From a virus, in the IMG/VR virus record IMGVR_UViG_3300037882_001289, positions 1 to 48,057 of that record: a stretch of 48,057 nucleotides of DNA. One strand, written 5' to 3'. The translations under genes and the position numbers were made by a program. The notes under the pieces were generated by a model. That model saw only the letters and a program-made list of their open reading frames with translations. It had not been told where the DNA came from and searched no databases. Each line of letters opens with the position of its first letter. The first letter of the stretch is position 1. Of this stretch, positions 774 through 46,766 are shown in pieces.

Positions 774-1472
774 ATGTACTTCTACGAGACAGCACAACCT
801 TCCGGCAAATGGACCCCCCGTGTGAGTGGCGACATGCCGAAGATCCACGTGTCGGGGGGCATCCGAAGAATCAGTGATGGCTGCGGACCAAGGATCAGCT
901 TCGAACCTGTTCTGGTGGCCGAGGAGCATCGGCACTTGACCTTGACTGATCTTGCCAACATCTACGGCCAGAACACCAACACTGCGTTGCTTCTATCGAA
1001 GACGATGCTCGTCAGCCCCGGCGAAGCTTCTTCGAATGACCAAGCGGTCGGGAAACTGCCATCTTTCAAAGCTTTGTACCGCAACTACAAGGGCGAGGCT
1101 TCAATGCGTGAGATCATTCCGATCCGGGTATGGTTCGGCAACACGCAGTGGCATCCAGAAGACCAATGGATGATGACTGCTTTCGATCTTGGCAAGCAAG
1201 CGAACCGGGACTTCGCTCTCAAAGACTTCGGCAACATTAACGAAGTCGCCAGCACTGACGGCATCAATCAAGCCATCGAGCGGGTTGAGCGTCTCAATTC
1301 CGCAATGAAGGAAGTCGAAGAGCATCTCTTCGTGGAGCTGTCTCTGCGCCAGCAGGTCGCTCTCAAATTCTCAGCTGCTCGTCTGCAGCGGCACGGCATC
1401 GCGGGCCTTGCAGAGAGCTTCGCCCTCGCTGACGCTTTCCTGGCCTTCCCTGAGCCCAAGGAGAGCGAATGA
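774..1472 (+). CDS. Hypothetical phage protein, 232 aa
   Basis: The chosen ATG at 774 has GAGG 9 bases upstream. The frame is open back to an ATG at 555, which also has a GAGG at good distance and would give 305 residues, but the extra 73 residues are Pro/Arg/Gln rich and less protein-like. The 774 product is globular-looking, with a Trp-rich centre and a helical C-terminal half containing a possible coiled coil at about residues 150-200. Product unknown. It is followed by an ATGA overlap with a mini-gene. Confidence 0.7.
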   Translation: MYFYETAQPSGKWTPRVSGDMPKIHVSGGIRRISDGCGPRISFEPVLVAEEHRHLTLTDLANIYGQNTNTALLLSKTMLVSPGEASSNDQAVGKLPSFKALYRNYKGEASMREIIPIRVWFGNTQWHPEDQWMMTAFDLGKQANRDFALKDFGNINEVASTDGINQAIERVERLNSAMKEVEEHLFVELSLRQQVALKFSAARLQRHGIAGLAESFALADAFLAFPEPKESE

Positions 1473-1615
1473 TGAGACGCTTCTTCATGAGGATCGTCTG
1501 CTGGCTGGATGACCACAAATATGGCCCGTCCAGATCAGTATCCTGGATCAGCGAGAGAGCTTATCCAAGGATGAAGACCTGCCAACGTTGCGGCAAGGAG
1601 GAGCTGGTCGAATGA
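1469..1615 (+). CDS. Mini-gene with C-terminal CxxC, 48 aa
   Basis: Starts at an ATGATGA overlap with the previous stop and ends at TGA 1613-1615, itself overlapping the ATG of the next gene. The peptide starts basic and aromatic and ends with CQRCGKEELVE, half of a zinc knuckle. Its 3' end also supplies the AAGGAGG ribosome-binding site of the GHKL-like gene, so translation is probably coupled. Function unknown. Confidence 0.55.
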   Translation: MMRRFFMRIVCWLDDHKYGPSRSVSWISERAYPRMKTCQRCGKEELVE

Positions 1616-2652
1616 CTGTTCGATTCATCACTGCGACAGAGATACCGCTGCAGAGCTTCACTCTCCTTGGTATCAATGTCAAGACGAAGACTGACGCCAT
1701 AGGGCGATTTGGGACTGGTCTCAAATACGCCGTAGCAGTCATCTTGCGTCATGGCGGAACGATCAGGCTCTTCATATCCGGGACGGAGTATGAGTTCTAC
1801 CTCCATGGTCTTAAGTTCAGAGGCAAGGACTTCCAGCAAGTCAGAATGCGTAAGAGAGCAACCTTCGGTGGTTGGTTGTCCTCTAAAGCTTTGCCATTCA
1901 CGACCGAGTTCGGCAAGGACTGGGGACTGTGGCAAGCCTACCGCGAGCTGGAGAGCAACACTCGCGACGAGAGCGGCCACACCACATCAGATGGCATTCA
2001 GCCTGAAGCATACAAATCCGGGACAGTGATCGAAGTTGACTGCCCCGGCTTCCAAGAGGCTATCGACGAAGAGCAAGTTTTCTTCGATCCCGGCGATAAA
2101 CCCAAGGTCAACTCTTGCGACATCTTCGATATGTACGAAGGCGAGAGCAAGCATTTCTACTATCAAGGGATCCGGGTATATACTCTGCGTTATCCTGCCC
2201 GGTTCACTTATAACTTCAAGTCTCCATATGTGAGGCTGACGGAAGACCGGACCGCAGATAATGCATTCTCTCTGTTCTATTGGATCGCACAAGAGGCCAT
2301 GAAGCTAAGTTCCAACAATCTGGTAACGAGGATGCTTGTGAAGTCCGATAATCCTTGCATGGAGACCCATGATCTCAACTTTGACGTGGATAAAAGAGGC
2401 TCAGATGTGTTCGTGAACACCGCGCGAGCAATGCACGCTGGGGGGTCGCTCGGAAGGTCTTATTCTAATTGGTTCGCTTCTGCTCCAGTTAACCAGGAAC
2501 CGGGCCTGAAGGAAGTCAGTTACAGCCTCACCAACCCTGAATGGGAACTGATCATTAAGGCTGTCGAGCGTGGCCGCCATTGGGATCAAGACTGGTCCGA
2601 TGACAGCGAGCGTGCCTACCAACGTCTTCTCCGCAAACGCGAACCATTCTGA
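1612..2652 (+). CDS. GHKL/Hsp90-like ATPase-fold protein
   Basis: 346 residues. ATG at 1612 is preceded by AAGGAGG and overlaps the upstream stop. Residues 30-40 (IGRFGTGLKYA) match the glycine-rich G2 box of the GHKL ATP-lid (Hsp90, MutL, histidine kinases, Top6B). The N-box and G1 box upstream are not clear, so ATP binding is inferred from one motif. The rest has no domain I recognise. Phage proteins of this type are usually annotated as ATP-binding proteins of unknown role. It sits between cysteine-rich mini-genes in the early operon. Confidence 0.7.
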   Translation: MTVRFITATEIPLQSFTLLGINVKTKTDAIGRFGTGLKYAVAVILRHGGTIRLFISGTEYEFYLHGLKFRGKDFQQVRMRKRATFGGWLSSKALPFTTEFGKDWGLWQAYRELESNTRDESGHTTSDGIQPEAYKSGTVIEVDCPGFQEAIDEEQVFFDPGDKPKVNSCDIFDMYEGESKHFYYQGIRVYTLRYPARFTYNFKSPYVRLTEDRTADNAFSLFYWIAQEAMKLSSNNLVTRMLVKSDNPCMETHDLNFDVDKRGSDVFVNTARAMHAGGSLGRSYSNWFASAPVNQEPGLKEVSYSLTNPEWELIIKAVERGRHWDQDWSDDSERAYQRLLRKREPF

Positions 2653-2662
2653 GGTAACCATC

Positions 2663-2851
2663 ATGCCAAAGCGCCACTGGTCAGAGATCATGACTTGCTC
2701 ATGCGGAGCACGGTTCACGGACTACGCTAGGGAAGCTTATCATCGCCACAACTTCCCTCTTGTCTGCCGTAAGCCTAAGACGAAGAAAACAGCAAGAACG
2801 GCTGAAAAAGAGCGTGCTACTGCGCTTCAGGCGAGAGATAAGCGGTCTTGA
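2663..2851 (+). CDS. Small Cys-containing basic protein
   Basis: 62 residues. ATG at 2663 follows GAGGT closely and lies 10 bases after the previous stop. CSCGARF near residues 12-18 plus HRHNFPLVC form a zinc-finger-like CxC/H/C pattern. The C-terminal 25 residues are Lys/Arg/Ala rich, consistent with nucleic-acid binding. Last gene before a short gap containing a long inverted repeat. Confidence 0.6.
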   Translation: MPKRHWSEIMTCSCGARFTDYAREAYHRHNFPLVCRKPKTKKTARTAEKERATALQARDKRS

Positions 2852-3329: not shown

Positions 3330-4208
3330 ATGGCAGTTAAAGACAAAGAAGCGGAGACCCTCGTCGTCAAGAACGAGAACGCAGTCACGCTCCAAGACCA
3401 GGCAACGGCAGTCGCGAACTTCAACGACGATGATTTCTTCGGCATCAACACGGGCATGGACGAGGTCACTTCTGCCGACGTCACCCTGCCGCGTTATACC
3501 ATCCTGCAGGGCTTGTCGCCGCAAGTCAACAGTCGCAAGGACGAATACGTCGATGGCGCCCAGATGGGCATGATCTTGAACACTGCTTCCAACAAAGTCA
3601 TGAACAGTCAGCGGCTGGTCTTTGCCTATTACCAACGCCGGAACATCGAATGGACACCGCGCGATAAGCCATGTCCGATCGAAGGCTTGCCCAAGCCGCT
3701 GGGCGGGGGGTTGTATCGCGACTATGGGACCGACGACAGCATCCTCGAAGAATGCGTCCGTTGGGAAGAGAACGGTTCGCTGTGGACCCCCCGTGGGAAC
3801 GAGCTGGTCGTGACCGGGACGTGGTATGTCATCGACCCTGACACCTTGTCCATGGGCTGGATCGGGATGGGCAAGACCCAGCTGACTTCGTCCAAGAAGC
3901 TGCTGGCTGGCATCCGCGACGAGAAGTTCATCCATCCTTCGAAGGGCCTGCAGCCTGCTCCGATGTTCTTCCGTGTTTGGGAGATGTCGACCCGTCTGCG
4001 CGAGTTCGACGGCAACGAATGGTTCGTCTGGCAGCACAAGCCCGGTGAGCTGATCCAGAACCACGTCAACGGTCGGGCCATTCTGGAAGCTTGCCGCGAG
4101 GTCAGCCGGACGATCCGCGAAGGCGAGATGCAGATCGATGTCACTGTCGGTGAGACCGACAGTCAGACGCAGAAAGGCGGTTCGGTCGATCAAGGTGGCC
4201 GGATGTAG
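3330..4208 (+). CDS. Phage replication-region protein, unknown role
   Basis: 292 residues; ATG at 3330 has AGGAG at 7-base spacing. The layout of an acidic N-terminus, a central YQRRNIEWTPR-type block, LTSSKKLL and a Trp/Phe-rich C-terminal half resembles a conserved tailed-phage family often found beside replication or recombination genes, usually annotated hypothetical. I recall the family only loosely. An in-frame ATG at 3216 would add 38 residues with LCSFCGANPEEDC, a zinc-knuckle-like segment, but has no ribosome-binding site. DNA binding is possible, not shown. Confidence 0.75.
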   Translation: MAVKDKEAETLVVKNENAVTLQDQATAVANFNDDDFFGINTGMDEVTSADVTLPRYTILQGLSPQVNSRKDEYVDGAQMGMILNTASNKVMNSQRLVFAYYQRRNIEWTPRDKPCPIEGLPKPLGGGLYRDYGTDDSILEECVRWEENGSLWTPRGNELVVTGTWYVIDPDTLSMGWIGMGKTQLTSSKKLLAGIRDEKFIHPSKGLQPAPMFFRVWEMSTRLREFDGNEWFVWQHKPGELIQNHVNGRAILEACREVSRTIREGEMQIDVTVGETDSQTQKGGSVDQGGRM

Positions 4209-4847: not shown

Positions 4848-5035
4848 TGCTGGACGTGAATGCTATCCAGGAAGGCACCAAGGTCCGGTATCGTCCTTCG
4901 CCTGTCGCCCAAGGGACCCTTGGGGGGACTTTCATCCGTTCCGCTAGGGCCAAGGAGCCTGCAGCGATGATCCTCTTCGAAGGTGAAGAGACCCCCCGGA
5001 TCGCTTACTGCGCTAGGCTTGAGCTCGCGGACTGA
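4847..5035 (+). CDS. Hypothetical protein, 62 aa
   Basis: Start codon shares one base with the MazG stop (TGATG), suggesting coupled translation. The predicted protein is a small beta-rich domain (KVRYRPSP, GGTFIR, MILFEG). Its tight linkage to mazG hints at a related role. No family recognised. Confidence 0.65.
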   Translation: MLDVNAIQEGTKVRYRPSPVAQGTLGGTFIRSARAKEPAAMILFEGEETPRIAYCARLELAD

Positions 5036-5782: not shown

Positions 5783-6411
5783 GCGAAGTCTCTGAACCTC
5801 CTTTCATCACCGCGATGTACGCAGCAACCTTCACTGGCAAACAGATCGATTTTGATCATATCAGGCTTGAAGATATCAGTATCGTCGACATCGCTGTTGG
5901 CTTGTCTCAGCAGTGCCGTTACGCTGGGCAGGTCTGGCCGTTCTACTCGGTCGCCGAGCACAGCGTCCTGGTCAGTCAGCTGGTGCCTCAGCAGCCAAGG
6001 AGCCGCTTACCGCTGCAGGCTTTGATGCACGACGGGCCGGAATACATCCTCAACGATATGATCCGGCCCGTCAAGCGTCGGATCACTGGCTATGACGATC
6101 TAGAAGATCGCGTCATGTATGCGATCGACAAGCGGTTCCGGCTGGACTACACCGTCGAAGCTTGGAAGTCCATCAAGCACTTCGATGACCTGATCACGGT
6201 GGCAGAGCGTCGCAAGCTTATGCCACGTCTTGACCCGGCCAAGTACGGACGGGGGGTCAATGAGCTTGATGTCCCGCAAGTGCATTTCAAATGCATGTCT
6301 CCCCCCGTCGCTTGTCTCTCCTTCCTGCATCGGTTCATGCAACTGACGGAATGGACGCCGGACAGCGCAGAACGTGAACTGATCGAGATGATCATGAAGA
6401 CGAGGTTCTGA
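5779..6411 (+). CDS. HD-domain (YfbR-like) phosphohydrolase
   Basis: 210 residues, ATGA overlap with the previous gene. The CRYAGQVWPFYSVAEHSVLV block places H61 in the metal site; the HD pair is in LMHDGPEYILND (H84-D85, with E88), and a later Asp is in KHFDDL. This matches phage HD proteins related to the 5'-deoxynucleotidase YfbR. YfbR-type enzymes dephosphorylate dNMPs, and related phage HD enzymes (DatZ) act on dATP. Substrate here is unknown. With MazG upstream and a HAD phosphatase downstream it could clear a particular dNTP. MHDGPE replaces the more usual LHDAxE, a modest deviation. Confidence 0.82.
   Translation: MSEVSEPPFITAMYAATFTGKQIDFDHIRLEDISIVDIAVGLSQQCRYAGQVWPFYSVAEHSVLVSQLVPQQPRSRLPLQALMHDGPEYILNDMIRPVKRRITGYDDLEDRVMYAIDKRFRLDYTVEAWKSIKHFDDLITVAERRKLMPRLDPAKYGRGVNELDVPQVHFKCMSPPVACLSFLHRFMQLTEWTPDSAERELIEMIMKTRF
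6248..6309. repeat. G6/C6 pair with 9-bp arms inside the HD gene
   Basis: GACGGGGGG (6248-6256) pairs with CCCCCCGTC (6301-6309) across 44 nt; the loop itself contains TGCATTTCAAATGCA, a second hairpin. Codons read CGG GGG GTC and TCT CCC CCC GTC, so different residues are encoded by the two runs. Confidence 0.8.
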
Positions 6412-7370: not shown

Positions 7371-8186
7371 ATGGAATACGAAGCCAATCAGAAACGCCAG
7401 CACGTCAACATTGTTGCTGCCACTTTCATTCATCCTGTCGCTGCTGCAGCGATGCTGATCTTCACGAAGTCGACACGTCTTGAGATGTCTCCTGGCGGGT
7501 TGGAAGAAGTAAAGCAGAAGTGCTTCGCTGAGCCGGAATGGATGATGCAGGAGCTGGACTACATGTCCAAGACCATCCGGTCGAGCTGGGAATTCCTGGA
7601 CATCACCTTCGCAGTCCGCAACGTGTCACGGGCCTGTGCGCAGCAGATGACCCGGACCCGGTTCACGCCGATCGATGGCGACCTTTTCGCTTCCTATGCT
7701 ATGCAGTCGCAACGCGTGACCGATATGTCCGGAATGGGCTGGCACAACCCGTTCGACGCTGAAGAGCAGCAGGACCGCTTCGAAGAGTTCGAAGCTCGCA
7801 TGCAGGACATCGTCCATGGCCATTATGAGATCATGGTCAATGATGGCGTCAAGCTCGAGGACGCGCGGGGGGTACTTCCCGTAAACCTTCACTGCAACCT
7901 CATTGCGAAGTACAACCTTCGCATGCTGGTCGATCTGGTCCAGAAGCGCGAGAGCTATCGGGCGCAAGGCGAGTTCAACACGGTTGCCCGGGAAATGCGC
8001 GAAGCTCTGGTCGAGATGTGGCCTTGGGCGAGCTTGTTCCTGCGTCCGAAGAACGATTTAGCAAAGTCTGCTGTCCAAGATCTTCGTGTGTCGATCGAGA
8101 AGGCGGCAGACCAAGTTGGCCAGAAGCTTGCTCATGAGATGATGATCAAGCTTGCCAAGGTCGATGACATCCTTCAAGGAGACTGA
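7371..8186 (+). CDS. thyX: Flavin-dependent thymidylate synthase (ThyX) variant
   Basis: 271 residues. C-terminal ThyX hallmarks are present: ARGVLPVNLHCNLIAKYNLR (about 164-183), then YRAQGEFNTVAREM, matching the usual LP...NLR...AQxExR layout. The ThyX signature (canonically RHR-x7-S) reads TRTRF and then, after an insertion of about 8 residues (TPIDGDLF), ASYAMQSQR. ThyX methylates dUMP using methylene-THF, with FADH2 as hydride carrier. The altered signature may only be a phage-type variant, or may reflect another one-carbon transfer such as hydroxymethylation. It sits between the FAD oxidoreductase and nucleotide phosphatases. Confidence 0.85.
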   Translation: MEYEANQKRQHVNIVAATFIHPVAAAAMLIFTKSTRLEMSPGGLEEVKQKCFAEPEWMMQELDYMSKTIRSSWEFLDITFAVRNVSRACAQQMTRTRFTPIDGDLFASYAMQSQRVTDMSGMGWHNPFDAEEQQDRFEEFEARMQDIVHGHYEIMVNDGVKLEDARGVLPVNLHCNLIAKYNLRMLVDLVQKRESYRAQGEFNTVAREMREALVEMWPWASLFLRPKNDLAKSAVQDLRVSIEKAADQVGQKLAHEMMIKLAKVDDILQGD

Positions 8187-8391: not shown

Positions 8392-8879
8392 TGAAAGACA
8401 TTGAACTGATAGTCTGCGATCTTGACGGAACTTTATGTGACGTCAGGCATCGTCAGCATCTTGCTCAAGTCGGGCAATGGGACGAGTTCCATTCTCTGCT
8501 TGAGCTTGACTCCCCCCGGCCTATGGTGCTGGCCATGATCAAGCATATGCTGACCTTGGAATCTGAGCCAAGGTTCGTATTCCTGACTGGCAGGCCGGAC
8601 AACCACAGAGGCCAGACAATAGCTTGGTTGGCCGAGAAATGCGACCTGCTCGAAATCGACGACTACAATGAGCTGCTCATGCGCGGTAAGGATGAGTATG
8701 GCTCAGATACGGTCATCAAGCAAGAACTTCTGGAATCATATATCGCTTCCGAGTTCTCTGGCTATGACCCAGAAGAGATCAAGTCGAGGACTTTGATCCT
8801 CGACGATAGAGATAAAGTGGTAGCCCACTTCCGAGACTTGGGCTATGAAACGTGGCAAGTCAACGAAGGAACATTCTGA
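8391..8879 (+). CDS. HAD-superfamily phosphatase
   Basis: 162 residues. Motif I is CDLDGT (nucleophile D10, acid/base D12), motif II is VFLTGRP (Thr near residue 66), and motif IV is LILDDRDK (about residues 138-145). The pattern resembles the phosphatase domain of polynucleotide kinase/3'-phosphatase and phage acid phosphatases. Likely substrates are 3'- or 5'-nucleotide phosphates. No kinase domain is attached. It overlaps both neighbours by one base, so translation is coupled. Confidence 0.83.
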   Translation: MKDIELIVCDLDGTLCDVRHRQHLAQVGQWDEFHSLLELDSPRPMVLAMIKHMLTLESEPRFVFLTGRPDNHRGQTIAWLAEKCDLLEIDDYNELLMRGKDEYGSDTVIKQELLESYIASEFSGYDPEEIKSRTLILDDRDKVVAHFRDLGYETWQVNEGTF

Positions 8880-9731: not shown

Positions 9732-10268
9732 ATGCAAGAAATCCATCCTTTGGCTACCAAGAATGTGGCTTTATCCCCCCTCGCTATGTTCCTGAAGATC
9801 GACCAGTTGGCCTTCTTGGCCCGGACCGACGAGGACGTCGCTTCGATCAAGAAGATGCTTCGCCTGGAAGAAGCGAACTGGGTCGAAGACGAAGTCGCAG
9901 CTCGCGGTTACGTCCGTGGCGCGGGCGACGAAGCAACGAACTTCGCTCGCTTGCTCTTCAACTACGATCTTGGGATCGAAGTCGAGATCTTGCGCTATTT
10001 GAACGGCGCGAACTATCCCGACATCGGCGAAGTGCCTTCCTGCAAGCTCGCCCATATCGGCATGCATGTGGACAAGGGCGAGAAGATCCCGGTCGGGCTT
10101 GTCGACTTCGTCTTCGCATTCCCGATCATCCAGCAGGTCGAGACTATCGCCCACACCAACGAGTTCTTGATCAATACGGGCCGGAAATATCGCTATACGA
10201 TTTACGACACTCGTGAATTGCTTGGCGTGTACTTGAAAGTCATCGAACGTCTGGAGCAAGAAGCATGA
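9732..10268 (+). CDS. VOC/glyoxalase-fold protein
   Basis: 178 residues, starting 1 base after the SDR stop region. KIDQLAFLARTDEDVASIKK and LLFNYDLGIEVEILRY with KLAHIGMHV resemble the paired beta-alpha-beta-beta-beta modules of the vicinal-oxygen-chelate fold. H in KLAHIGMHV and E in the EVEI strand could be metal ligands. Family members include glyoxalases, isomerases, dioxygenases and drug-binding proteins, so the reaction is open. Tight coupling to the SDR suggests the two act in one pathway. Confidence 0.6.
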   Translation: MQEIHPLATKNVALSPLAMFLKIDQLAFLARTDEDVASIKKMLRLEEANWVEDEVAARGYVRGAGDEATNFARLLFNYDLGIEVEILRYLNGANYPDIGEVPSCKLAHIGMHVDKGEKIPVGLVDFVFAFPIIQQVETIAHTNEFLINTGRKYRYTIYDTRELLGVYLKVIERLEQEA

Positions 10269-10792: not shown

Positions 10793-11231
10793 GCAAGAAA
10801 CAGCTTCTTGTAGCGTCGCCAGCCAACCGAGTGGCGACGAGCTGAGTGGCTTTCTTGGCCATTTTCTTGACCCCGAAGATCTGTCAGCTCAGGATGACTT
10901 CCTTCACAAGGCTATGGCTATTGGAGCTGCTCGCAGAAGAGAGTTGCTCAGCCAGATCTTCGAAAGATGCCGTTGGGAAGGTGCCTGCCTGATCTGGCAA
11001 GGCAGTCATTCTGGGGAAGGAAGAGGCGGCGGATACGGCAGGATGAGCTTCGAGGGAACGACAGCCTCTGTGCACCGGATAGTCTATGCAATAGTGTATG
11101 GCCCTATACCGCCAAAGAAGCAAGTGGATCACGATTGCAATACGAGGCGGTGCTGCAATCCGCTTCACATGAAGCATATGACCCACAAGAAGAATCAGAA
11201 ACTCAGGGACAAGAGATCCCGGACAACTTAA
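10776..11231 (+). CDS. HNH endonuclease
   Basis: 151 residues from ATG 10776, overlapping the previous gene by 17 bases in another frame. GYGRMSFEGTTASVHRIVYA followed by VDHDCNTRRCCNPLHMKHM is an HNH_3-type core: the DH pair supplies the catalytic His and the Cys pair plus later His/Asn shape the zinc/metal site. Such genes are often homing endonucleases inserted near replication genes, and this one lies directly before the exonuclease and polymerase genes. It could be a free-standing mobile element or a domesticated nicking enzyme. Confidence 0.88.
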   Translation: MASRLEQETASCSVASQPSGDELSGFLGHFLDPEDLSAQDDFLHKAMAIGAARRRELLSQIFERCRWEGACLIWQGSHSGEGRGGGYGRMSFEGTTASVHRIVYAIVYGPIPPKKQVDHDCNTRRCCNPLHMKHMTHKKNQKLRDKRSRTT

Positions 11232-11242
11232 GAGGGACGACA

Positions 11243-11794
11243 ATGGTTGCCATCGTATTCGACACAGAGACGACAGGGTTCATAAGCAGCATTGATGCTC
11301 CTCTGAACACTCAGCCGAAGATCATCGAATTGTTCGCATTGAAGATCGACGAACAGAATTTCGAGATCATCGACGAGCTTGAGCTATTGATTGATCCAAG
11401 GGAAGACCTGCAGGAAGAGATCATTCGGGTCACCGGGCTGAATGATGTTGACCTGAAGGGCAAGGGAGAGTTCGCTATCCATGCGAATGCAATCAGCGAC
11501 TTCTGGCTTGGGTCAAACAGTTCTGTCGGGCACAACATCACGTTCGACTGCGACATGCTTGAAGTCGAGTTCAAACGGCTTGGCCGCGTCAACCGTTTCC
11601 CATGGTCGCCGAAGCGTATCTGCACGGTCGAGGCTTCAGAACACTACTTCGGAAGAAGGCTCAAGCTGATTGACTTGCATACCTACCTGTTCAGCGAAGG
11701 CTTCGAGCAAGCTCACCGGGCGAGGAATGACGTGATGGCAACCTACCGTTGCGTCAAAGAGCTTCACAGGCGGGGGGATCTTATTTTCTCTTGA
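11243..11794 (+). CDS. dnaQ: DnaQ-like 3'-5' exonuclease
   Basis: 183 residues from ATG 11243. DEDDh motifs are complete: ExoI VFDTETTG (D7, E9), ExoII GHNITFDCDM (Asp near 102) and ExoIII HRARNDV (His and Asp near 158-163). It ends 68 bases before the DnaE-type polymerase. This pairing mimics the bacterial alpha-epsilon proofreading couple, so it probably edits for the phage polymerase. No clamp-binding motif or alpha-binding tail like the E. coli epsilon C-terminus is evident. Confidence 0.9.
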   Translation: MVAIVFDTETTGFISSIDAPLNTQPKIIELFALKIDEQNFEIIDELELLIDPREDLQEEIIRVTGLNDVDLKGKGEFAIHANAISDFWLGSNSSVGHNITFDCDMLEVEFKRLGRVNRFPWSPKRICTVEASEHYFGRRLKLIDLHTYLFSEGFEQAHRARNDVMATYRCVKELHRRGDLIFS

Positions 11795-11862
11795 TTAACG
11801 CTTTTATTGGTGCTTCTGCCAGCCAGGCAGGGCATCTTTTCAACGACAAGAGGAGACGAGCC

Positions 11863-14601
11863 TTGAGAATTAGAAGTGGTTATTCCTTCCGTACAGCGTA
11901 CGGATTCCTTGAAGACGTGATGAGTAGAATTGATACGGAATACGCCCCCCTCACGGACAGGGCGTCTGCCTATGGGTTCAACCGTTGGCGCAAGCTGTGC
12001 GTCAAGAAAGGCCGCAAGCCTGTATTCGGCGTTGAGATCGCTGTCACTGATTCTCCTAACGCCAAGAAGATGAATCTGAACCATGTGACCTTGATCGCGA
12101 CCAATAGCCTAGGGCCATTGAACTCTGCTATTGAGCTTGCCTTCAGTAAGTTCAGGTTCGAGCCTGTCCTTACCTACAACGATCTTAACGCAATCGATCC
12201 AAGCATCAAGGTAATCCTTGGCCGCCGGATTGATCCGCAGATGCTCGATAATCAGCGCGAATGGTATGTGGCCGAAGGACCAAGCCAGATCCCGGCGATG
12301 AAGCGTATGGCTACTGAGTACGGATGGAAGCCTATAGCGAGCTCAGACAACCTGTACCCTTCGCCAGAAGATAGGCACGCATTCCTGATCACCCTTGGCC
12401 GCGATTCAAACACTCAGACTTGGGCTCAGCACATCATGTCCGATGCTGAGCTTCGAATGCATGCTTCTCCTGAAGCTTTCGCGAACCGGGACGCTCTGGC
12501 AGCGATGTGCACTGCCGACATGCTTACTCCTAAGCTGGTCAAACCTGCCACAGATAAGACCGTTGAGCAGTGGTGTCTGGATGCAGCCATTGGGCTTGGC
12601 GTGAACCTGCAGGATCCAGTGTATTGGGCGCGCTTCGAGCGTGAGCTTAAAGTCGTCAAGCAGCTTGGGTTCGAAGACTACTTCTTGATCATCGCTGATC
12701 TTGTGCGCTTCGCCAAGACCAAGATGTTCGTAGGTCCAGCTCGCGGTTCGTCTTGCGGTTCATTGATATGCTATCTGATGGGCATCACTACAGTCGATCC
12801 GATTGAGCATGACCTTCTGTTCGAACGTTTCCTAGATCCTGGTCGTGCCGACCTTCCGGACATCGACATCGACTTCAGCCACCAGCGCCGCGATATGGTG
12901 TTCACTTATCTATCGGACACTTACGGCAGAGATCACGTCGCTCGCCTTGGGACGATCTCCTTCATGCGTGAGCGTCAACTGGCTAAGGAAGTCTCAAGCG
13001 CGCTCAAGGTTCCTCACTTCAAGTTTGAATCCGTCATCAACAACGTTGAGAAGAACGAAGGCAACACTACGCTTATGATGGCCCTGCAGAACACGCAGGA
13101 TGGCGCTAAGCTGATGAGAGAGCATCCTGAGCTCGAGATCATCGGTCGGATCGAAGGTCATCCTAGGCACCACTCCACCCACGCGGCTGGGGTCGTTGTG
13201 ACTGACCTTCCTGTCCACGAGTACGTGGCTGTGGACGCCAGATCCAACACGGCAGAGGTTGATAAGAAGGATGCAGAGGACCTAGGTCTTCTGAAGATCG
13301 ACGCTCTTGGGCTTAAGCAGTTGTCCATCTTTGAGGATTGCCTTGAACTGATTGGCAAGCCATTCACTTGGTTGCAGAAGCTTCCGCTTAATGATCAAGC
13401 TGCGTTCAAGGTTCTCAACGACAAGCTATTCTCCGGCGTATTCCAATACAACGGCAGAGCAGTGCAACAGGTATCTTCGTCCTTCAATATCGAACAATTC
13501 GAAGATATGGTTGCCACAACTGCACTAGCTCGCCCCGGCCCACTTGGCGCTGGTGGCACAGACAAGTGGATTGCAGTCAGGAGAGGCGAAGCAACGGCAG
13601 CAATCGAGCATCCTGCCTTCGAACCAATCCTCGCCAGAACCAAAGGTATCGTGCTGTACCAAGAGCAGGTCATGCAAGCAGGTCGCGAGATCGGCGACAT
13701 GGACTGGGTGCGAGTGACCAAGCTTCGTAAGGCTGTCCAGTACTTTGGAGGCTCCAAGGGCATGGAAGAGTTCCGGGATGAGTTCATGATCGGAGCTAAA
13801 GCTAAAGAGATACCTGAGGACGTGGCCACTCGTTTCTGGGATGATCTTTTGACCTACGGTTCGTACGCATTCAACCGTTCCCACGCTGTTGCTTATTCGA
13901 TGATCTCATATTGGTGCTGCTACCTAAAGGCTCATCACTCTCTTGAATACGCTGCAGCCCTTCTCAACCATGAAGCTGACCCATCAAGACAGCGGATGCA
14001 GCTCAGAGAGATGGAAGCGGAAGGAGTAAAATACGTCCCAGTGGATCCGGAGACTTCAGGTCTCAAGTGGCAGGTGACCAAGAACGGCCTAGTTGGCCCG
14101 ATATCTCTGGTCAAAGGCATGGGCGCTAGAACAGCCCAAGAATACATAAGAGCGAGAGACCGGGGGGTCGATCCTCCAAAACGTGCAATGACGCTACTCA
14201 AGGATCCAGTCACCCCCCTCGACAGCTTGACGCCGATAACGCGTTCGATCAGCAACAACCATCCTGATCTGACTGCGATCAACATCTTCTCTGCGCCTAC
14301 CAAGGTAGATGAGCTCGGAGACCGGGCCCAGCGCGACTTGCTGCTCCTGCTCCGGTTGGTCAAGGCCAAGCCAAGGAAGGATGACAAGACTGGCGGAACC
14401 AAGATGACTGCTCTGATGGAGGATGACACCGGAGAGATCAAGGTCTTCTTCAATGGCCGCAAGTACAACGAATACGGAGCCGCTATGCTTGACCGTGGTC
14501 GGGTAGGTACGACCCTATGGGCAGTCAAAGGTTCTCAACCTGACGGTGGCGGGATCATATTCTGCGACGCTATCCGCTATCTGGGAGAGTTCAAACAATG
14601 A
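11863..14601 (+). CDS. dnaE: DNA polymerase III alpha (DnaE)-type replicative polymerase
   Basis: 912 residues. The frame is open upstream, but TTG at 11863 has AGGAGACGAG at ideal spacing and the product then begins LRIRSGYSFRTAYG, where DnaE PHP domains begin. PHP metal ligands look degraded (TDRASAYG for the usual TDHGN), so the domain is probably inactive. GPARGSSCGSLICYLMGI and PDIDIDF (D333, D335) carry two catalytic Asp; the third is probably D480 in KIDALGL. A helix-hairpin-helix lies near LVKGMGARTAQEY, and a C-terminal OB-like part ends the protein. Shorter than bacterial DnaE (about 1160), with no tau-binding domain visible. Likely the phage replicase. Confidence 0.93.
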   Translation: MRIRSGYSFRTAYGFLEDVMSRIDTEYAPLTDRASAYGFNRWRKLCVKKGRKPVFGVEIAVTDSPNAKKMNLNHVTLIATNSLGPLNSAIELAFSKFRFEPVLTYNDLNAIDPSIKVILGRRIDPQMLDNQREWYVAEGPSQIPAMKRMATEYGWKPIASSDNLYPSPEDRHAFLITLGRDSNTQTWAQHIMSDAELRMHASPEAFANRDALAAMCTADMLTPKLVKPATDKTVEQWCLDAAIGLGVNLQDPVYWARFERELKVVKQLGFEDYFLIIADLVRFAKTKMFVGPARGSSCGSLICYLMGITTVDPIEHDLLFERFLDPGRADLPDIDIDFSHQRRDMVFTYLSDTYGRDHVARLGTISFMRERQLAKEVSSALKVPHFKFESVINNVEKNEGNTTLMMALQNTQDGAKLMREHPELEIIGRIEGHPRHHSTHAAGVVVTDLPVHEYVAVDARSNTAEVDKKDAEDLGLLKIDALGLKQLSIFEDCLELIGKPFTWLQKLPLNDQAAFKVLNDKLFSGVFQYNGRAVQQVSSSFNIEQFEDMVATTALARPGPLGAGGTDKWIAVRRGEATAAIEHPAFEPILARTKGIVLYQEQVMQAGREIGDMDWVRVTKLRKAVQYFGGSKGMEEFRDEFMIGAKAKEIPEDVATRFWDDLLTYGSYAFNRSHAVAYSMISYWCCYLKAHHSLEYAAALLNHEADPSRQRMQLREMEAEGVKYVPVDPETSGLKWQVTKNGLVGPISLVKGMGARTAQEYIRARDRGVDPPKRAMTLLKDPVTPLDSLTPITRSISNNHPDLTAINIFSAPTKVDELGDRAQRDLLLLLRLVKAKPRKDDKTGGTKMTALMEDDTGEIKVFFNGRKYNEYGAAMLDRGRVGTTLWAVKGSQPDGGGIIFCDAIRYLGEFKQ

Positions 14602-18852: not shown

Positions 18853-18902
18853 CGCGTGCTTTTACTCTGAAAACCAGCATAATACGCTCACCCCCCGATG
18901 GC
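18769..18902. repeat. Long imperfect inverted repeat around a gene end
   Basis: GCCATCGTGGGGGGTG (18769-18784) pairs with CACCCCCCGATGGC (18889-18902) across a 104-nt loop, with only a 2-nt bulge. It spans the stop codon of the gene ending at 18852. It is the most extended G6/C6 pair in the genome. Confidence 0.8.
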
Positions 18903-35149: not shown

Positions 35150-35509
35150 TCAGGCAGCGAGCGTGAGATCGTAGAAGATGTCCGTTGCTCCTTGCCAGAA
35201 CACGTCAGCTTGCAGGATCTCACGCCACGTCCCACGGACGTACACTCGGTCGTTCTTCTTTGGCACTACGCCCTGAGCCGCGACCATCAACTTGTCTCTG
35301 GTCTCTCCAGTCAAGGTTCCAGATTTATCTCTGACCTTCTCCATGTCCGGTATAGCGTAGATGGTGTAGGTCGTAGGGGCACCAGCCACGCCACCGGAGT
35401 AAGGGTTAGGCGGCAGAGTGCCTGGCTTCTCCAGCGTCAGGGGGGTACCAACATCTATGATCGCAAGAGCGACCTCAGCCGCGACTGCATCCCAATCCTC
35501 AGCCATCAC
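35150..35509 (-). CDS. Head-tail adaptor/stopper candidate
   Basis: 119 residues, overlapping the adjacent connector gene. Beta-rich C-terminal half (DKLMVAAQGVVPKKNDRVYV, then WREILQADVFWQG) resembles neck stopper proteins (gpFII/gp16-like). Assigned from size and the head-to-tail gene order. Confidence 0.65.
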   Translation of the reverse strand: MMAEDWDAVAAEVALAIIDVGTPLTLEKPGTLPPNPYSGGVAGAPTTYTIYAIPDMEKVRDKSGTLTGETRDKLMVAAQGVVPKKNDRVYVRGTWREILQADVFWQGATDIFYDLTLAA

Positions 35510-35916: not shown

Positions 35917-35986
35917 ATCATCCTCCAGAGTTACACGGGAAGTCTCTCGACCCCCCGTGCTGTCCTCTCGTCATCGCATCCCAAGC

Positions 35987-38901: not shown

Positions 38902-40739
38902 GGCGCTTCCTCGTCCAATGCTTTCGCCTTCCAGTCTTCATCGATCTCTTCGAAGATCTCAGGCCCAAGCACGATCCGACCCTGATAAGGCTTCACGTTG
39001 CTTAGGTCAATCTCCTGATCCTTCCAACTGATCGTGATATGAGGCTGATAGTCGGGATAGTCATAAGACCCCCCGGCATCTATCACTGCCACATGTCTCC
39101 AAGCCAGTCGGCTGGATGTGAAGAGCAAGACAGTGGCCTCTCCGAACTGATCCATGAGGCGCGGCCCACCAGCCGCGATCACGAACTCTTCGTCGCCCCA
39201 GTCAGTGCCGACCTTCATCCAGTCGACTGGCTGCTTGCTGTATGCGATGGTCACATGCAGCTGGCTAGCGTCCATCGGTTCAGTGAAGCCTTGCGACTTC
39301 GCCCAAGCGATGATCTCTGCACCGTTGACAACATCCCTGCGAACATAGAGCGAACGGGGGGCTGCATCAGTGACTGGCTTCTTAGCCTTTGGCTTCGCGC
39401 CTTCGTCAACGTCTTCAGGCTCGTCCTCTTCGCCTAGATCTTCAGACTTAGGAAGCTTGTTACCTTCAGCGTAGAACTCTTCGACGTAGCCTTCGAGCCC
39501 AGGAGCAGCGCCACTCTCAGTGAGAGCATTGACCGCAGACTTGGCAACCGCCTCTTCAGGTACGCTCCCAAGACGGTTGAGCTTGTCGAAGGCCGACATG
39601 ATCTTGTCTGCGTTCTCTGCACGTTCCTTCTGGGTCGGTTGCCACAGAGGCTTCCAGTTATAGTGCAGGTCAGCAGGCCGCGAGCCTAGAGCAGAGTAGA
39701 TCAGGCACTCGTCCAAGTTAGCTGCAAGAGCAGGTTGGATCTTGAGCGTCTGCTCCACCTTCACGCGGTCGTAGTAAAGGCGAATGTCAGCGTCGCCTGT
39801 TGCCTGCATCCCAGCCGGAGACATCTCAAACAGGAGCGTCATCGGGATGCCAGCGTTAGCACTAGCGAGCTGCATCATGCGATCGATCACATCAGGAAGG
39901 CCAGCGAAGGACGCATTCTTCTGTTCGTACTCCTCAAGCACGTCCAGCAGCAGCATCCCGTTGATACCCTTGGCCGTGGCCGCCAGCATCACACGCTTAA
40001 TGATCTCGTCTGAGTAGGCGGAACCGCGAGTGGCCAAGTTCACCATGAAGTCCGGGATCTTGACCACGTCAACCTTAGCTTCGTACACCAAGGAGTTCGT
40101 ATTGTCCGCGACCTCATCAACCCGAATGAGGCTCTTGAGCATCCCAGGAAGTACACTGTCCCCCCAGCCATCATTGCTCATCATGCCATTCATATCGGCC
40201 ATAGGCTCGATACCATGGAACAGGGCTACACGCGAAGGGTGCAGGCGAACCGCACTCTGAGCCACTTGCCAGTATCCGGGCTTGCCGAAGTCGGGCGAGG
40301 TCACGTCAGACACGAACTCTACAGGGTTCATGTTGATCCGCGACACGACGGTCAGATACTTCAGGCCTTCCTTACCAATCGAAGCAGGAAGCAGAGGCTG
40401 AGTTGGGTCAGCAGCGCCATCTCCGATGATGATAGCTGCACCACCATACAACCGAGCCAACTGCCGCGCCTTATAGACCTTGTACTTGAGGTCCAGGCGA
40501 GCCTCTTCAGCTTCGATCAGGCTGATGTCTGCCGCCTCAGCCTGCCACTCGCGCCACTCACGGCATGAATCCTCAGCAGGCAGGTCGACAGCACGACGCA
40601 CTAGAGCAGAAGCCTTGTACGACGTATGGAGCTCCATCAGGTCTTGCTGGCCGAATATGTATTTGGCTGCACTCGCCTTATCGCGAGCAGTGCCCAATCC
40701 AGACACAAGATTAACCAAGTTGTCCCATACTCTAGCCAT
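38898..40739 (-). CDS. Portal protein (DUF1073) with C-terminal 2H phosphoesterase, Acb1-like
   Basis: 613 residues. Residues 1-430 are the DUF1073 portal (YKASALVRRAVDLPAEDSCR, LARLYGGAAIIIGD, LHPSRVALFHG, LLFEMSPAGM). After an acidic linker (about 430-460), the last 150 residues carry two HxT motifs, LHVTIAY (H near 495) and PHITISW (H near 567), 72 residues apart, as in 2H phosphoesterases. Acb1 is a phage 2H enzyme that cleaves CBASS cyclic nucleotides, and related domains occur fused to DUF1073 portals. Activity here is inferred from motifs. Confidence 0.85.
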   Translation of the reverse strand: MARVWDNLVNLVSGLGTARDKASAAKYIFGQQDLMELHTSYKASALVRRAVDLPAEDSCREWREWQAEAADISLIEAEEARLDLKYKVYKARQLARLYGGAAIIIGDGAADPTQPLLPASIGKEGLKYLTVVSRINMNPVEFVSDVTSPDFGKPGYWQVAQSAVRLHPSRVALFHGIEPMADMNGMMSNDGWGDSVLPGMLKSLIRVDEVADNTNSLVYEAKVDVVKIPDFMVNLATRGSAYSDEIIKRVMLAATAKGINGMLLLDVLEEYEQKNASFAGLPDVIDRMMQLASANAGIPMTLLFEMSPAGMQATGDADIRLYYDRVKVEQTLKIQPALAANLDECLIYSALGSRPADLHYNWKPLWQPTQKERAENADKIMSAFDKLNRLGSVPEEAVAKSAVNALTESGAAPGLEGYVEEFYAEGNKLPKSEDLGEEDEPEDVDEGAKPKAKKPVTDAAPRSLYVRRDVVNGAEIIAWAKSQGFTEPMDASQLHVTIAYSKQPVDWMKVGTDWGDEEFVIAAGGPRLMDQFGEATVLLFTSSRLAWRHVAVIDAGGSYDYPDYQPHITISWKDQEIDLSNVKPYQGRIVLGPEIFEEIDEDWKAKALDEEAP

Positions 40740-42124
40740 CAACCAATCCCGCCAAGTGTGTAGCTAGGCCCACTAAGAGCCGCAAAGGCCCTGCTCGTGC
40801 TATCTACATCGTCGTCATGCGCAGCCTCAGGGAAGCCCTCAAGGTTGCTGAACCATCTCTCGTTCCACTCACCACGGACCACGATCACGTTGCCTGCTTC
40901 CGCTTGCGCAGAGAACGGACTGAACCGGACGATCTTATCGCCAGTCTCAGGGCTGAACCGACAGTTGTATCCGGTCAACAGCTTAGCGTAAGAGGCCACT
41001 TGAGCCTTGCCTGCTTGCCCCGGATCCTGAGCCAAGTCCTGTACGGTCGTTATGCCGTCCTGAGACGCAGTGTTCTTTACTAAGCGTTCAACGCCCATTG
41101 GACTTAGGTGCTCGTTGACGTTGTCGTACACCACGTAGCGGCCATCAGCGGTGACGCCCATTTTAGTCCCGCTAGTGGCGTCAGGGTCATTGCCCTCGGT
41201 CACCGTAGTGCCAGCAAGGTCCCAGCCTCTAGCCTTCTTGATGCAGGCAGGAGCAACATCTACAACCTCAACCCATGAACGATTGAAGTACAGACCTGCT
41301 GCGGCCCGGATCTTCCAGTTACCGCCCAACAGACGCTCACGCTCGACCTTAGGCAGCGCAAGCAGCGACGCCATGTAGTTGGGGTCAGCCTGCATCAGCT
41401 TCTTGTTGTCTGTCAGCTTAGAAGCCACGAAGGTAACCGACTTAGGCGGGATCGGGACCATGTCGCCGAACTCGTCCTCCATCGTGTAGCCTTCAAGCTC
41501 TCGCTTGCTGTCAGCCCAGATGATCTTATCGCCTATCCGAACGAACCAGCGGATGTTGCCAGAACGCTCAGGTATCGCATACCCAGTGTTGGGGTCGATC
41601 CACCATGCTATGAAGCGTGCGACCCAGCTATCAGCGTCAGGGTTGCAACTAGCTCGCACATAGGGCCGAACACCGCACATGCTCCGGTTACGTGAGAGCA
41701 TATAGAAGAACTGAGACTCAGAGAAGTGCGTCAGCTCATCGAACATGATCAAAGGGATCTGAGACCCTTGCCAGTCCTTAGTTGTCTTCTCATGCTCAAG
41801 GTGAGACATTGAGACAGAAGCTCCAGAAGGGAACTTCCAATCCAGAGTGCTGTCCCTAGGTTCGCCGCCAGCAGCAGGATAGAGCTTAATGCTCTCGTCC
41901 CAGAGACCGCCCTCGTTCCTGATCTGCTTGGTATTGCGGCGGAAGAAGACAGCGCCGAAGCCCGGTACGCCTATGTGGCGAAGGGCTTCAAGCAATAAGG
42001 CCCAAGTCTTCCCCCCGCCTGCAGCTCCACCGTAGATAGCGATGTCAGCAGAGGAAGCAAGGAAGGTCTCTTGCGGTCCCTGTTGCGGCCTGATTACGAT
42101 CTCATGCTTGCTCATCGCCGTCAT
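40739..42124 (-). CDS. terL: Terminase large subunit
   Basis: 461 residues. Walker A GGAAGGGKTWA (about 32-42), Walker B LIMFDELTHF (about 125-134) and coupling motif SCNPDADSWV show the packaging ATPase. The nuclease part has ARGWDLAGT, QDPGQAGK and HDDDVDS, the usual acidic metal ligands. Overlaps the small subunit (start ATG 42124; ATG 42115 is an alternative) and shares its stop with the portal start. Confidence 0.93.
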   Translation of the reverse strand: MTAMSKHEIVIRPQQGPQETFLASSADIAIYGGAAGGGKTWALLLEALRHIGVPGFGAVFFRRNTKQIRNEGGLWDESIKLYPAAGGEPRDSTLDWKFPSGASVSMSHLEHEKTTKDWQGSQIPLIMFDELTHFSESQFFYMLSRNRSMCGVRPYVRASCNPDADSWVARFIAWWIDPNTGYAIPERSGNIRWFVRIGDKIIWADSKRELEGYTMEDEFGDMVPIPPKSVTFVASKLTDNKKLMQADPNYMASLLALPKVERERLLGGNWKIRAAAGLYFNRSWVEVVDVAPACIKKARGWDLAGTTVTEGNDPDATSGTKMGVTADGRYVVYDNVNEHLSPMGVERLVKNTASQDGITTVQDLAQDPGQAGKAQVASYAKLLTGYNCRFSPETGDKIVRFSPFSAQAEAGNVIVVRGEWNERWFSNLEGFPEAAHDDDVDSTSRAFAALSGPSYTLGGIG

Positions 42125-43352: not shown

Positions 43353-43778
43353 TTAATTCCTCATCTTTTCCGCAACAAAGTTGTTAATGATCTCAACAAA
43401 CCACTGATAATCCAGCTTCTTCATATCAACTGACCCAAGCTCAAGCTCAGACAAAGTTCCCATGAACCCCCCAGTGAGCTGCAGCGCTACCATCAACACC
43501 GTCTCGTCTTTCCTCAGGGTCATCCCATAACTCTGGCAGCCTAACCATAATGAATTGCGATGCCATCGGCGCTGGCTTGGCCTCAACTCCTTAACGACAG
43601 AAGCTCCGCGCTTCAACTCGCAGGGTTGCCAATAAGGACCAACAGGTATCCAACAGTCTGGCATGCCAGTGTCTGACCCAAGTCCCGGTTCCATAAATGA
43701 AACGGTCCCAGAGGGGAACCGACCGTCATCCCTAAGGATTGATCTCAGTTCACTCTCCAGGACCTTCCTAGCGCACAT
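43353..43778 (-). CDS. PD-(D/E)XK nuclease-like protein (VRR-NUC/RecB-like)
   Basis: 141 residues from ATG 43778 (an upstream TTG at 43793 is possible). GMPDCWIPVGPYWQPCELKRG supplies the D and ExK of the motif, followed by LRPSQRRWH, the Q-motif helix typical of Holliday-junction-resolvase/VRR-NUC-like small nucleases. It could trim or resolve DNA during packaging, matching its place upstream of the terminase. Motif-based call. Confidence 0.7.
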   Translation of the reverse strand: MCARKVLESELRSILRDDGRFPSGTVSFMEPGLGSDTGMPDCWIPVGPYWQPCELKRGASVVKELRPSQRRWHRNSLWLGCQSYGMTLRKDETVLMVALQLTGGFMGTLSELELGSVDMKKLDYQWFVEIINNFVAEKMRN

Positions 43779-44127: not shown

Positions 44128-44345
44128 AGCGTCCATCCTTGGTTCAAGTTAAGGTCTTCATCAGACTCATCCGACAGAATCACTTATCGCCCCACTGGAC
44201 CGCAGAAGCATCACCTATTTGTCCCAATCTTGTTCTACCGCAACAGCCAGACAGCCACTACCTCTTTTAAAGGCCCAAGAAACGCCCCCCAACCATCCTT
44301 CTTGGTCACCAAACCATCTCCTGCTCTTTCACCTAACCCTTCAGA

Positions 44346-44490: not shown

Positions 44491-44604
44491 CTTTTATCCT
44501 CCTTTCTCTCCTTTTCTAGGTTTCTTTAGGACCAGTCGTTATTATTTTCTTAAAAGACCACATCATCTTCCTAAAAAGCCGGGGGGCGTTTTTCTTGGTT
44601 TATA

Positions 44605-45413: not shown

Positions 45414-45831
45414 GATGAACCTGATCACACCGCTGTTGGCTTATGAGATCGAGATGGCTGCCAATCTCTGCGCCGATGCCTTCAAGGCCTTCAAAGCGGC
45501 AGACAAGCATTGGTTTGCGTTGGCCCCTTCGCTGGCTCATTTTGCCATGCAGACGGACACCTCACGCTTGCTGGTCGAGGATGGCTATGATGCCAACCCA
45601 ACGGCCTACACGGCAATCCTGCGGTTGTACGCCAAGTACCTGCGCAACGCTGGGCTCTACGTGGCCCCTCGCATGTGGATCGGCGACAAGCACCACACCT
45701 CAGTGTGGCTGAGCGACAAGGACAAGACCGCCCACTTCCGCGTTAGGGCCACCATTGACCATGGTTCTCCAGCCAACGGGGGGCGAGCCCAGTATGACTA
45801 CAGCAAGAAGTGGAGTTTCGGAGATGAGTGA
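45406..45831 (+). CDS. Hypothetical protein, 141 aa
   Basis: ATG 45406 lies behind GAGGAGACAACACCC and overlaps the previous gene. N-terminal half is helical and Ala-rich (YEIEMAANLCADAFKAFKAA); the C-terminal half is beta-rich with GDKHHTSVWLSDKDKTAHFR. No known motif. Overlaps the next start. Confidence 0.68.
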   Translation: MPEMNLITPLLAYEIEMAANLCADAFKAFKAADKHWFALAPSLAHFAMQTDTSRLLVEDGYDANPTAYTAILRLYAKYLRNAGLYVAPRMWIGDKHHTSVWLSDKDKTAHFRVRATIDHGSPANGGRAQYDYSKKWSFGDE

Positions 45832-46057
45832 GATCAAGACAGAGGTTCCCCCCGGCATTCCTGGGCTGGATCTGCAGCAGTCTCCTTACGTTAAGGAACT
45901 GAACCAGCAGGCCTTCAACCGGGCCTTCCTCCACCTCACCGCAAAAGACGCTGCAGGGGCTGTGTTGGCGGCGCTGACTGAGCGCTTCGGACCATGGGAA
46001 GCGGAGACGATCCTGGAGACTGCGACGCTAGCTGCAAGGAGACAGCGCAATGGGTAA
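45824..46057 (+). CDS. Hypothetical protein, 77 aa
   Basis: ATG 45824 overlaps the preceding stop by 8 bases. A Pro-rich start (PPGIPGLDLQQSP) is followed by two helices (NQQAFNRAFLHLTAKDAAGA and WEAETILETATLAARRQ). Could be a small dimeric helical protein. Unknown function. Confidence 0.65.
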   Translation: MSEIKTEVPPGIPGLDLQQSPYVKELNQQAFNRAFLHLTAKDAAGAVLAALTERFGPWEAETILETATLAARRQRNG

Positions 46058-46238
46058 TCAATTACTTGTCGATGGGCTGCAGAGCGAGATTAACTTCCTG
46101 CGAACCGTCCTGGAAGACCTTCGGATTCGCGAGCTTGGGCTCAAGACCCACAAGCAGGACATCCTCGAAGACATCCTCAGGCTGCGTCGTCAGCAACATG
46201 CCTACAAGCTGGAAGATCCGACGGTGGTGTACAAATGA
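46050..46238 (+). CDS. Small coiled-coil protein, 62 aa
   Basis: Overlaps both neighbours. The sequence is a continuous heptad-like helix (LQSEINFLRTVLEDLRIREL, then HKQDILEDILRLRRQQ), suggesting a coiled-coil dimer. No further function visible. Confidence 0.65.
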   Translation: MGNQLLVDGLQSEINFLRTVLEDLRIRELGLKTHKQDILEDILRLRRQQHAYKLEDPTVVYK

Positions 46239-46480
46239 TGGACTTCTTCGCAAACTTATTCATGTGCAAGCCGGGAAGACAGTTCGGTATCCATGGGACA
46301 GTGCTCACCAACTGCGGCGGCATGGAAGACGCTGAACTGTGCCTGCGCTGCGGACTGGAGTATTACCCGACCATCATGAGAGGAATGATAGCGCAAGAGA
46401 AGAGGGAAATCAAGGTTCCGGAAGACTGGCCTGCTATTGAGGCGGCGAGGAAGCTCCCAGGAGGGATCGACTGTGACTGA
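46235..46480 (+). CDS. Small Cys-rich protein, 81 aa
   Basis: ATGATG start overlapping the previous stop. FMCKPGRQF, then TNCGGMEDAELCLRCGLEYY, place four cysteines as two pairs, consistent with a zinc-ribbon. The C-terminal helix is charged. Unknown function. Confidence 0.65.
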   Translation: MMDFFANLFMCKPGRQFGIHGTVLTNCGGMEDAELCLRCGLEYYPTIMRGMIAQEKREIKVPEDWPAIEAARKLPGGIDCD

Positions 46481-46766
46481 ACATCAATCATGGGCTGAGG
46501 CAGATTGGCTTCCGGAAGGTGAACCAGTTGATGGGCTCACTCTTCGTGCAGACGGCTGGGCTTACTGGTTCTCTGACGACTACGAGCTAACCGAGTTCAA
46601 GACTATAGCCATGGTCCTTGGGGAGCCGGATGTGGACTTCAGGACGCTTATCTATTCTGCAAGGGTCCGTGATGGCAAGACCCTGTACCATGGTCAATTC
46701 GTAATCAGCCCCCCGGCATGGGCGCGGCTGCAAGCTTACTTAAATCAGAAAGGGAAACCAACATGA
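46473..46766 (+). CDS. Hypothetical acidic Trp-rich protein, 97 aa
   Basis: GTG start preceded by AGGAGG at 9-base spacing and overlapping the previous stop. The N-terminus is rich in Trp, Glu and Asp (SWAEADWLPEGEP, WAYWFSDDYELTEF). Its stop overlaps the tiny membrane-protein gene. The acidic surface could mimic nucleic acid, but this is speculation. Confidence 0.62.
   Translation: MTEHQSWAEADWLPEGEPVDGLTLRADGWAYWFSDDYELTEFKTIAMVLGEPDVDFRTLIYSARVRDGKTLYHGQFVISPPAWARLQAYLNQKGKPT

Follow-up and report, generated by a model that had tools for sequence, protein, structure and literature searches.

The closest known kind of site to the element described here is the template site of T7 gp4 (5′-GTC, with (G/T)2GTC preferred) and of DnaG primases (CTG, CTA, and CCC). 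The trinucleotide d(CCC) is the start site of the DnaG primases of Aquifex and C. difficile (PMC5204125). T7 Okazaki fragments are ~3 kb long, with a range of ~1–6 kb (PMC12839067). A longer site is needed by the primase-polymerase of NrS-1, which requires an 8-nt template sequence that is present in one copy per strand of the NrS-1 genome, two in all (PMC7102993). As a rule, the start sites of primases are so short and so common that they do not show in a genome. Here, we describe a six-base word, CCCCCC (C6, or G6 when it lies on the opposite strand), in the IMG/VR virus record IMGVR_UViG_3300037882_001289. The whole 48,057-nt stretch of this record was analyzed and is referred to as the window. 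The phage keeps 47 copies of the word by reshaping its protein-coding sequence.

Run Counts and Null Models

By direct count, the window contains 47 runs of exactly six (27 C6 and 20 G6), 10 runs of exactly five (5 C5 and 5 G5), and no G or C run of seven or more anywhere. An earlier note, made from the sequence alone, had reported the same 47 runs and the same lack of longer ones; it was also right about the scarcity of fives, although its figure of about 9 is replaced by 10. Its expectation that chance would give several times more fives than sixes was borne out by Markov simulations of order 1–3, which predict 26–43 fives, 5–10 sixes, and 1–3 runs of at least seven. Shuffling of synonymous codons across genes (n = 300), the kind of control that the note had proposed, produced a mean of 18.3 sixes and 36 fives, and the maximum of 25 sixes is well short of 47. 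A repeat with automatically called open reading frames (ORFs) gave a mean of 23.5 sixes and a maximum of 35. Codon or dinucleotide bias was therefore rejected as the cause in the window, since neither the Markov models nor the synonymous shuffles reach 47. When the 47 sites were kept fixed during shuffling, shorter runs proved to be depleted (93 runs of four observed vs. 149, and 10 runs of five vs. 29). This shortage would fit avoidance of near-miss sites or a bias against homopolymers.

G directly follows C6 at 30 of the 47 sites, as the earlier note had observed, and the window consensus is A-CCCCCC-G. Inside ORFs, where 43 of the 47 sites lie, all six combinations of sense and frame are represented, and codon frames and encoded residues differ among sites, again in line with the note. 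Site density does not differ between the replication arm (22 sites over 22.7 kb) and the structural arm (22 over 22.1 kb); the expectation, estimated with the sites collapsed, is only 1.5–1.8. No clear strand asymmetry of the kind that marks an origin was seen in the window. A transcription signal was rejected because both gene arms have sites on either strand, and these lie within ORFs and in every frame.

The sites are listed below. Each row is based on the direct count of exact-six runs, and (−) denotes G6 on the plus strand. Conservation refers to the eight C6 carriers beyond the window that were compared, metagenome contigs L005–L009 and G007–G009.

814..819 (+): C6 site, paired with 854
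854..859 (−): C6 site, paired with 814
2440..2445 (−): C6 site, single
3705..3710 (−): C6 site, paired with 3787; 4-nt shift in L006 homologue
3787..3792 (+): C6 site, paired with 3705; kept in G007
4922..4927 (−): C6 site, outside ORFs used; paired with 4992
4992..4997 (+): C6 site, outside ORFs used; paired with 4922
6251..6256 (−): C6 site, paired with 6301
6301..6306 (+): C6 site, paired with 6251
7867..7872 (−): C6 site, single
8512..8517 (+): C6 site, single
9775..9780 (+): C6 site, kept in L006, L008, G007
11772..11777 (−): C6 site, paired with 11945; kept in L005
11945..11950 (+): C6 site, paired with 11772; kept in L005
14162..14167 (−): C6 site, paired with 14213; kept in L006, G007; 2-nt shift in L007
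14213..14218 (+): C6 site, paired with 14162; kept in G007
16359..16364 (−): C6 site, paired with 16426; kept in L005, L006, L007, G007, G009
16426..16431 (+): C6 site, paired with 16359; kept in L006, L007, G007, G009
18777..18782 (−): C6 site, paired with 18891; kept in L006, G009
18891..18896 (+): C6 site, outside ORFs used; paired with 18777
21103..21108 (−): C6 site, paired with 21157
21157..21162 (+): C6 site, paired with 21103
22848..22853 (+): C6 site, single
23720..23725 (+): C6 site, single
24704..24709 (−): C6 site, paired with 24986
24986..24991 (+): C6 site, paired with 24704
26794..26799 (−): C6 site, single
28024..28029 (+): C6 site, paired with 28055
28055..28060 (−): C6 site, paired with 28024
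29058..29063 (+): C6 site, single
31181..31186 (+): C6 site, paired with 31253
31253..31258 (−): C6 site, paired with 31181
33090..33095 (−): C6 site, paired with 33215
33215..33220 (+): C6 site, paired with 33090
34653..34658 (+): C6 site, single
35440..35445 (−): C6 site, single
35951..35956 (+): C6 site, outside ORFs used
39069..39074 (+): C6 site in portal gene, paired with 39356
39356..39361 (−): C6 site in portal gene, paired with 39069
40160..40165 (+): C6 site in portal gene
42011..42016 (+): C6 site in terminase gene
43467..43472 (+): C6 site, 2-nt shift in L006 homologue
44285..44290 (+): C6 site, neighbor 44581
44581..44586 (−): C6 site, neighbor 44285
45778..45783 (−): C6 site, paired with 45848
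45848..45853 (+): C6 site, paired with 45778
46709..46714 (+): C6 site, single

The sequence at 44571–44596, CTAAAAAGCCGGGGGGCGTTTTTCTT, is terminator-like and has one G6 run inside.

Even Spacing and Opposite-Strand Pairs

Even spacing of the sites on each strand is a property absent from the earlier account. Gaps between plus-strand C6 sites span 818–3118 nt with a coefficient of variation (CV) of 0.38, and those between G6 sites span 1197–5225 nt with a CV of 0.46, where random placement gives ~0.95. On either strand, none of 4000 random sets had a minimum gap as large as that observed. The evenness is clear in both the window and L006.

Moreover, neighboring sites tend to lie on opposite strands. 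All 16 window neighbors closer than 300 nt do so, 12 of them at 125 nt or less. The orientation and spacing of these pairs, which the earlier note had both described and marked for checking, hold on recount and in a rotation test: 12 pairs fall within 130 nt, against 2.9 expected when one strand's sites are rotated (0 of 4000 rotations as high). In G007, 5 such pairs were found vs. 0.9 expected. The clustering is not seen in L006, and 15 window sites are unpaired. Because the pairing, although real in both the window and G007, is not found in all relatives, it is regarded as secondary to the evenness of each strand. Extended arms had also been noted, and some pairs do gain 3–5 bp; on average, however, the arms reach 1.6 bp beyond the hexamer vs. 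1.24 bp in unrelated far pairs, which is not clearly above chance. Therefore the stems are not what is selected.

Relatives That Carry the Array

The C6 excess is present in all eight close relatives of the window's DNA polymerase III (Pol III) and primase, and these carriers form one clade in the polymerase tree (support 100/100). They have in common a syntenic module of Pam3-like gp34/gp33, ThyX, PNKP phosphatase, a dehydrogenase, DnaQ, Pol III, and primase-helicase. The excess is absent from terminase and head relatives, including Rhizobium phages TM3_3_3 and N28_2 (terminase 67–68% identical), and from more distant polymerase relatives. The array is restricted to one replication-module lineage. 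In the 5.7-kb terminase-to-capsid stretch the window has 4 sites and the Rhizobium phage homologues have none, which indicates a factor working in trans across the entire genome. It appears that a factor of the replication module selects sites genome-wide, including in genes of other ancestry.

Comparison of homologous codons revealed that it is the word, and not the residue, that is conserved. Window sites are kept at 6 of 12 positions in G007, 5 of 15 in L006, 2 of 7 in L007, 3 of 3 in G009, and 3 of 18 in L005, while other GC-only hexamers are kept at only 2–12% in the same comparisons (2–5% for G007, L006, and G009). Six genomes have site 16359 and five have its partner, 16426; the two occur together in five. 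Some homologous sites are displaced by 1–8 nt, so that the run is retained in an altered codon register. At position 6680, Thr-Gly-Gly is spelled ACA-GGG-GGG(-TAT) in one relative and ACG-GGG-GGA(-TAT) in another, and the run is thus preserved in two registers. The base after C6 is lineage-dependent, being mostly G in the window and mostly T in L006. The proposal of the earlier note that selection acts on the nucleic acid, together with its suggestion to look for conserved sites in place of conserved residues, is upheld by these results: sites exceed other GC-only hexamers in several relatives, registers shift, and frames and residues vary. Sequence-specific selection on a DNA word is well supported. 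Its alternative idea of a template-switch product fails, as no copied flanks were found and homologous sites differ by substitution in gap-free codon alignments. Inserted repeats were rejected for the same reason, since the homologous sites arise through substitutions.

In the window, 3216–4208 and 5087–5782 encode homologues of cyanophage Pam3 gp34 and gp33; they open the replication module, and most members of the clade retain them. G007 (L154–L156) contains, besides its C6 sites, 19 copies of CCACCCCC vs. 0.5 expected, which may be a variant word or low-complexity coding sequence. A search for the host in genome contigs returned just one primase relative (32%), in a Parvularcula assembly.

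The Candidate Reader

The replication genes of the window that bear on the array are as follows.

10967..11794 (+): DnaQ-like exonuclease (RNase_T)
11749..14601 (+): DNA polymerase III alpha
14598..16799 (+): primase-helicase, proposed site reader (structure models, alignments, PHROG DNA primase)
20925..22625 (+): helicase, homologue of a phage protein annotated UvsW-like

With 14598–16799, the replicon encodes a putative primase of its own. The predicted structure of its N-terminal half (pLDDT 89) matches the T7 gp4 primase with a Z score of 12.8 over 166 residues at 3.3 Å, and DnaG cores with Z of about 10. Pfam Toprim gave no match at threshold for this protein. The C-terminal half matches the ring helicase of the NrS-1 primase (E 3e-14). 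The modeled protein thus combines a primase fold like that of T7 with a helicase like that of NrS-1.

Other Words in Other Lineages

A scan of approximately 100 loci for hexamers that are in excess and also regularly spaced on one strand yielded few besides C6. AGCGGA occurs 84 times in Vibrio phage VA-RY-3 (14 expected) and 59 times in Cronobacter phage Ss1 (13 expected); its spacing is fairly even on each strand (CV 0.6–0.7), and pairs do not cluster. In Vibrio phage PVA7, chosen by primase similarity alone (50%), it occurs 54 times vs. 8 expected, with weaker evenness. CCCCAA was found ~103 times in two 75-kb contigs (22–25 expected), evenly on one strand. In G011 (L161–L164) and G012 (L142–L145) it is dense and even on one strand (62 and 61 sites), with fewer sites (41 and 43), irregularly placed, on the other, the unevenness being greatest near the record ends. 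Synonymous shuffles fail to account for the excess of either word.

The primases of the AGCGGA phages belong to one family (PHROG 3022, DUF3987) and are not alignable to that of the window, while the primase of one CCCCAA contig is 34% identical to it. As the word changes with the primase and is common to phages of different host genera, this correlation points to a phage-encoded reader and not to a host Chi. No comparable even array was found in Wifcevirus Mansfield, JSF39, T7, or the two Rhizobium phages. Three further words of distant relatives, CCCCGG (G010), CCCGGC (G013), and CCGGGA (G014/G016), are enriched but clustered and not even, and were set aside as a different phenomenon. G010 (L159, L160), a distant polymerase relative, has a dispersed clustered repeat, AGCGAGCC, in 42 copies that looks like a regulatory element. 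Clustered repeats of similar appearance, AGCGAGAG (35 copies) and CCGGGACA (20 copies), are found in G013 (L146, L147), another distant polymerase relative.

A Proposed Primase Start Site

The explanation favored here, with a chance slightly better than even, is that C6 is a recognition site of the phage's own replication machinery, most likely a primase template start site. We infer the identity of the reader (the primase) and of the template (the C strand), as well as the link between spacing and Okazaki-fragment length. A T7-like primase-helicase would start primers at C6 on the template strand, for example on a single-stranded template carrying ACCCCCCG. Discontinuous copying by the Pol III module would need a start site every 1–3 kb per strand, and selection would maintain one C6 per ~1.8–2.4 kb of either strand, even within genes and whatever the frame. 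For a primase with a rare six-base site, sites would have to be set at fragment spacing on both strands, and the window has such a layout. The same-strand gaps of 0.8–5.2 kb are close to the T7 fragment range. The earlier suggestion of a replication signal is supported, in that the trait tracks the replication module.

Several observations weigh against this explanation. Residues 1–80 of the window protein contain no cysteine, so it lacks the zinc module by which the T7 and DnaG primases read their sites, and recognition would call for another kind of N-terminal module. For this reason C6 is claimed to work like a primase site, and identity with the DnaG/T7 type is not claimed. Moreover, polymerase, helicase, and primase are inherited together, so another protein of the module could be the reader. 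The excess in L009 is within the range of synonymous shuffles, and that in G007 was reached by one shuffle set. Exact window positions are kept at none of the sites in L009 and G008 and at few in L005 (3/18), where per-strand evenness is also not seen. The evenness of CCCCAA and AGCGGA is only partial, and many polymerase relatives are without any such motif. Finally, opposite-strand pairing within 130 nt (30–130 nt in the window and G007) is not predicted by priming alone.

A wider proposal is offered tentatively and is rather doubtful as a whole. A family of tailed phages with Pol III and primase replisomes of their own would imprint a lineage-specific start word of 6–7 nt (CCCCCC, CCCCAA, AGCGGA) evenly and genome-wide on both strands, and the inverted pairs of the C6 clade would also be many small bidirectional start points. 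The replication program could then be read from the raw sequence.

Alternative Explanations

An unlikely alternative, and the one that survives best, is that the sites are bound by a module-encoded protein that binds or bridges duplex DNA (for genome organization, packaging, or paired mini-origins), with a two-fold dimer on the inverted pairs. Close neighbors across the clade lie on opposite strands in 45 cases and on the same strand in 2, pairs cluster in the window and G007, and they persist as pairs, such as 16359/16426 in five genomes. However, evenness on each strand taken separately is not what a double-strand reader would predict. Pair clustering is missing from L006 and the AGCGGA phages, the 15 unpaired window sites would be left over, and no candidate DNA-binding protein was found.

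It is less probable still that the sites are Chi-like signals, needed at intervals along both strands, at which a nuclease that degrades DNA (RecBCD/AddAB of the host, or an enzyme of the phage) becomes a recombination complex. Chi of the E. coli type has the sequence GCTGGTGG, and phage enrichment in Chi is a previously described idea. The motif is suitably G-rich, orientation-dependent, regular, and present on both strands, but it tracks the phage lineage and not the host. The AGCGGA array, an analogue of the C6 array, is common to Vibrio and Cronobacter phages, which argues against its being set by a host nuclease. The Chi-like signal raised by the earlier note is therefore disfavored in its host form.

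Hairpins of G6:C6 pairs in RNA or single-stranded DNA, which the earlier note had also suggested, are very improbable. Neighboring runs are complementary, and L007 has three intergenic C6-N10-G6 elements ahead of genes. Nevertheless, neither extended nor covarying stems were found (1.6 vs. 1.24 bp), the hexamer is invariant with no compensatory variety, loops range from 6 to 290, and single sites are common. The L007 elements (7274–7296, 7650–7672, and 8728–8750) are near-identical, each with C6-N10/N11-G6 followed by CAACCAACCTCAGGAGAC just 5′ of a start codon; each unites a ribosome-binding sequence and a hairpin-like pair of C6 and G6.

Lastly, an assembly artefact or a codon or composition bias can hardly be the cause: some sequencing is error-prone at homopolymers, but the runs recur in eight further metagenomic contigs, frames are open through the sites, homologues align without gaps, and shuffles yield 18 sixes (max 25).

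Significance and Comparison With Known Systems

No described phage C6/G6 array or primase-word array was found in the literature (open-licence papers). If the primase explanation is true, lagging-strand priming, the gaps that it tolerates, and the way in which enzyme and site co-evolve would be legible from sequence. The idea would be directly testable in the cultured phages Ss1, VA-RY-3, and PVA7. If the reader is another protein, the array would still amount to selection for a DNA word, resolved by strand and acting over the whole genome, that takes precedence over codon choice; no description of such a case was found.

DNA uptake sequences (DUS) and uptake signal sequences (USS) of Neisseria and Pasteurellaceae are also over-represented short words, often in inverted pairs. 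They belong to cellular genomes, and their inverted pairs are often intergenic, as terminators, whereas 43 of the 47 window sites are inside phage ORFs. Chi is likewise short, G-rich, oriented, and over-represented. However, Chi tracks a host enzyme, while the C6, AGCGGA, and CCCCAA motifs track the phage replication lineage.

The primase sites come closest. As in T7, where sites lie on the lagging template and fragments are 1–6 kb long, the primase is phage-encoded and fused to a helicase, and the CCC of Aquifex and C. difficile is a DnaG precedent for the word. In contrast to the sites of T7 and DnaG, which have 3–5 bases, the window word has six, is rare by chance, and is selected at even spacing. 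Sites that are short and abundant need no enrichment. In T7, the pentamers are densely packed without clear regularity (for GGGTC on one strand, CV 0.74, P 0.036). The window also resembles NrS-1 in having a phage enzyme, a homologous ring helicase domain, and, on the favored explanation, a long, specific template site. It differs from it in that NrS-1 has two copies and a PrimPol-type domain, whereas the window has 47 copies and, as modeled, a Toprim-type primase domain.

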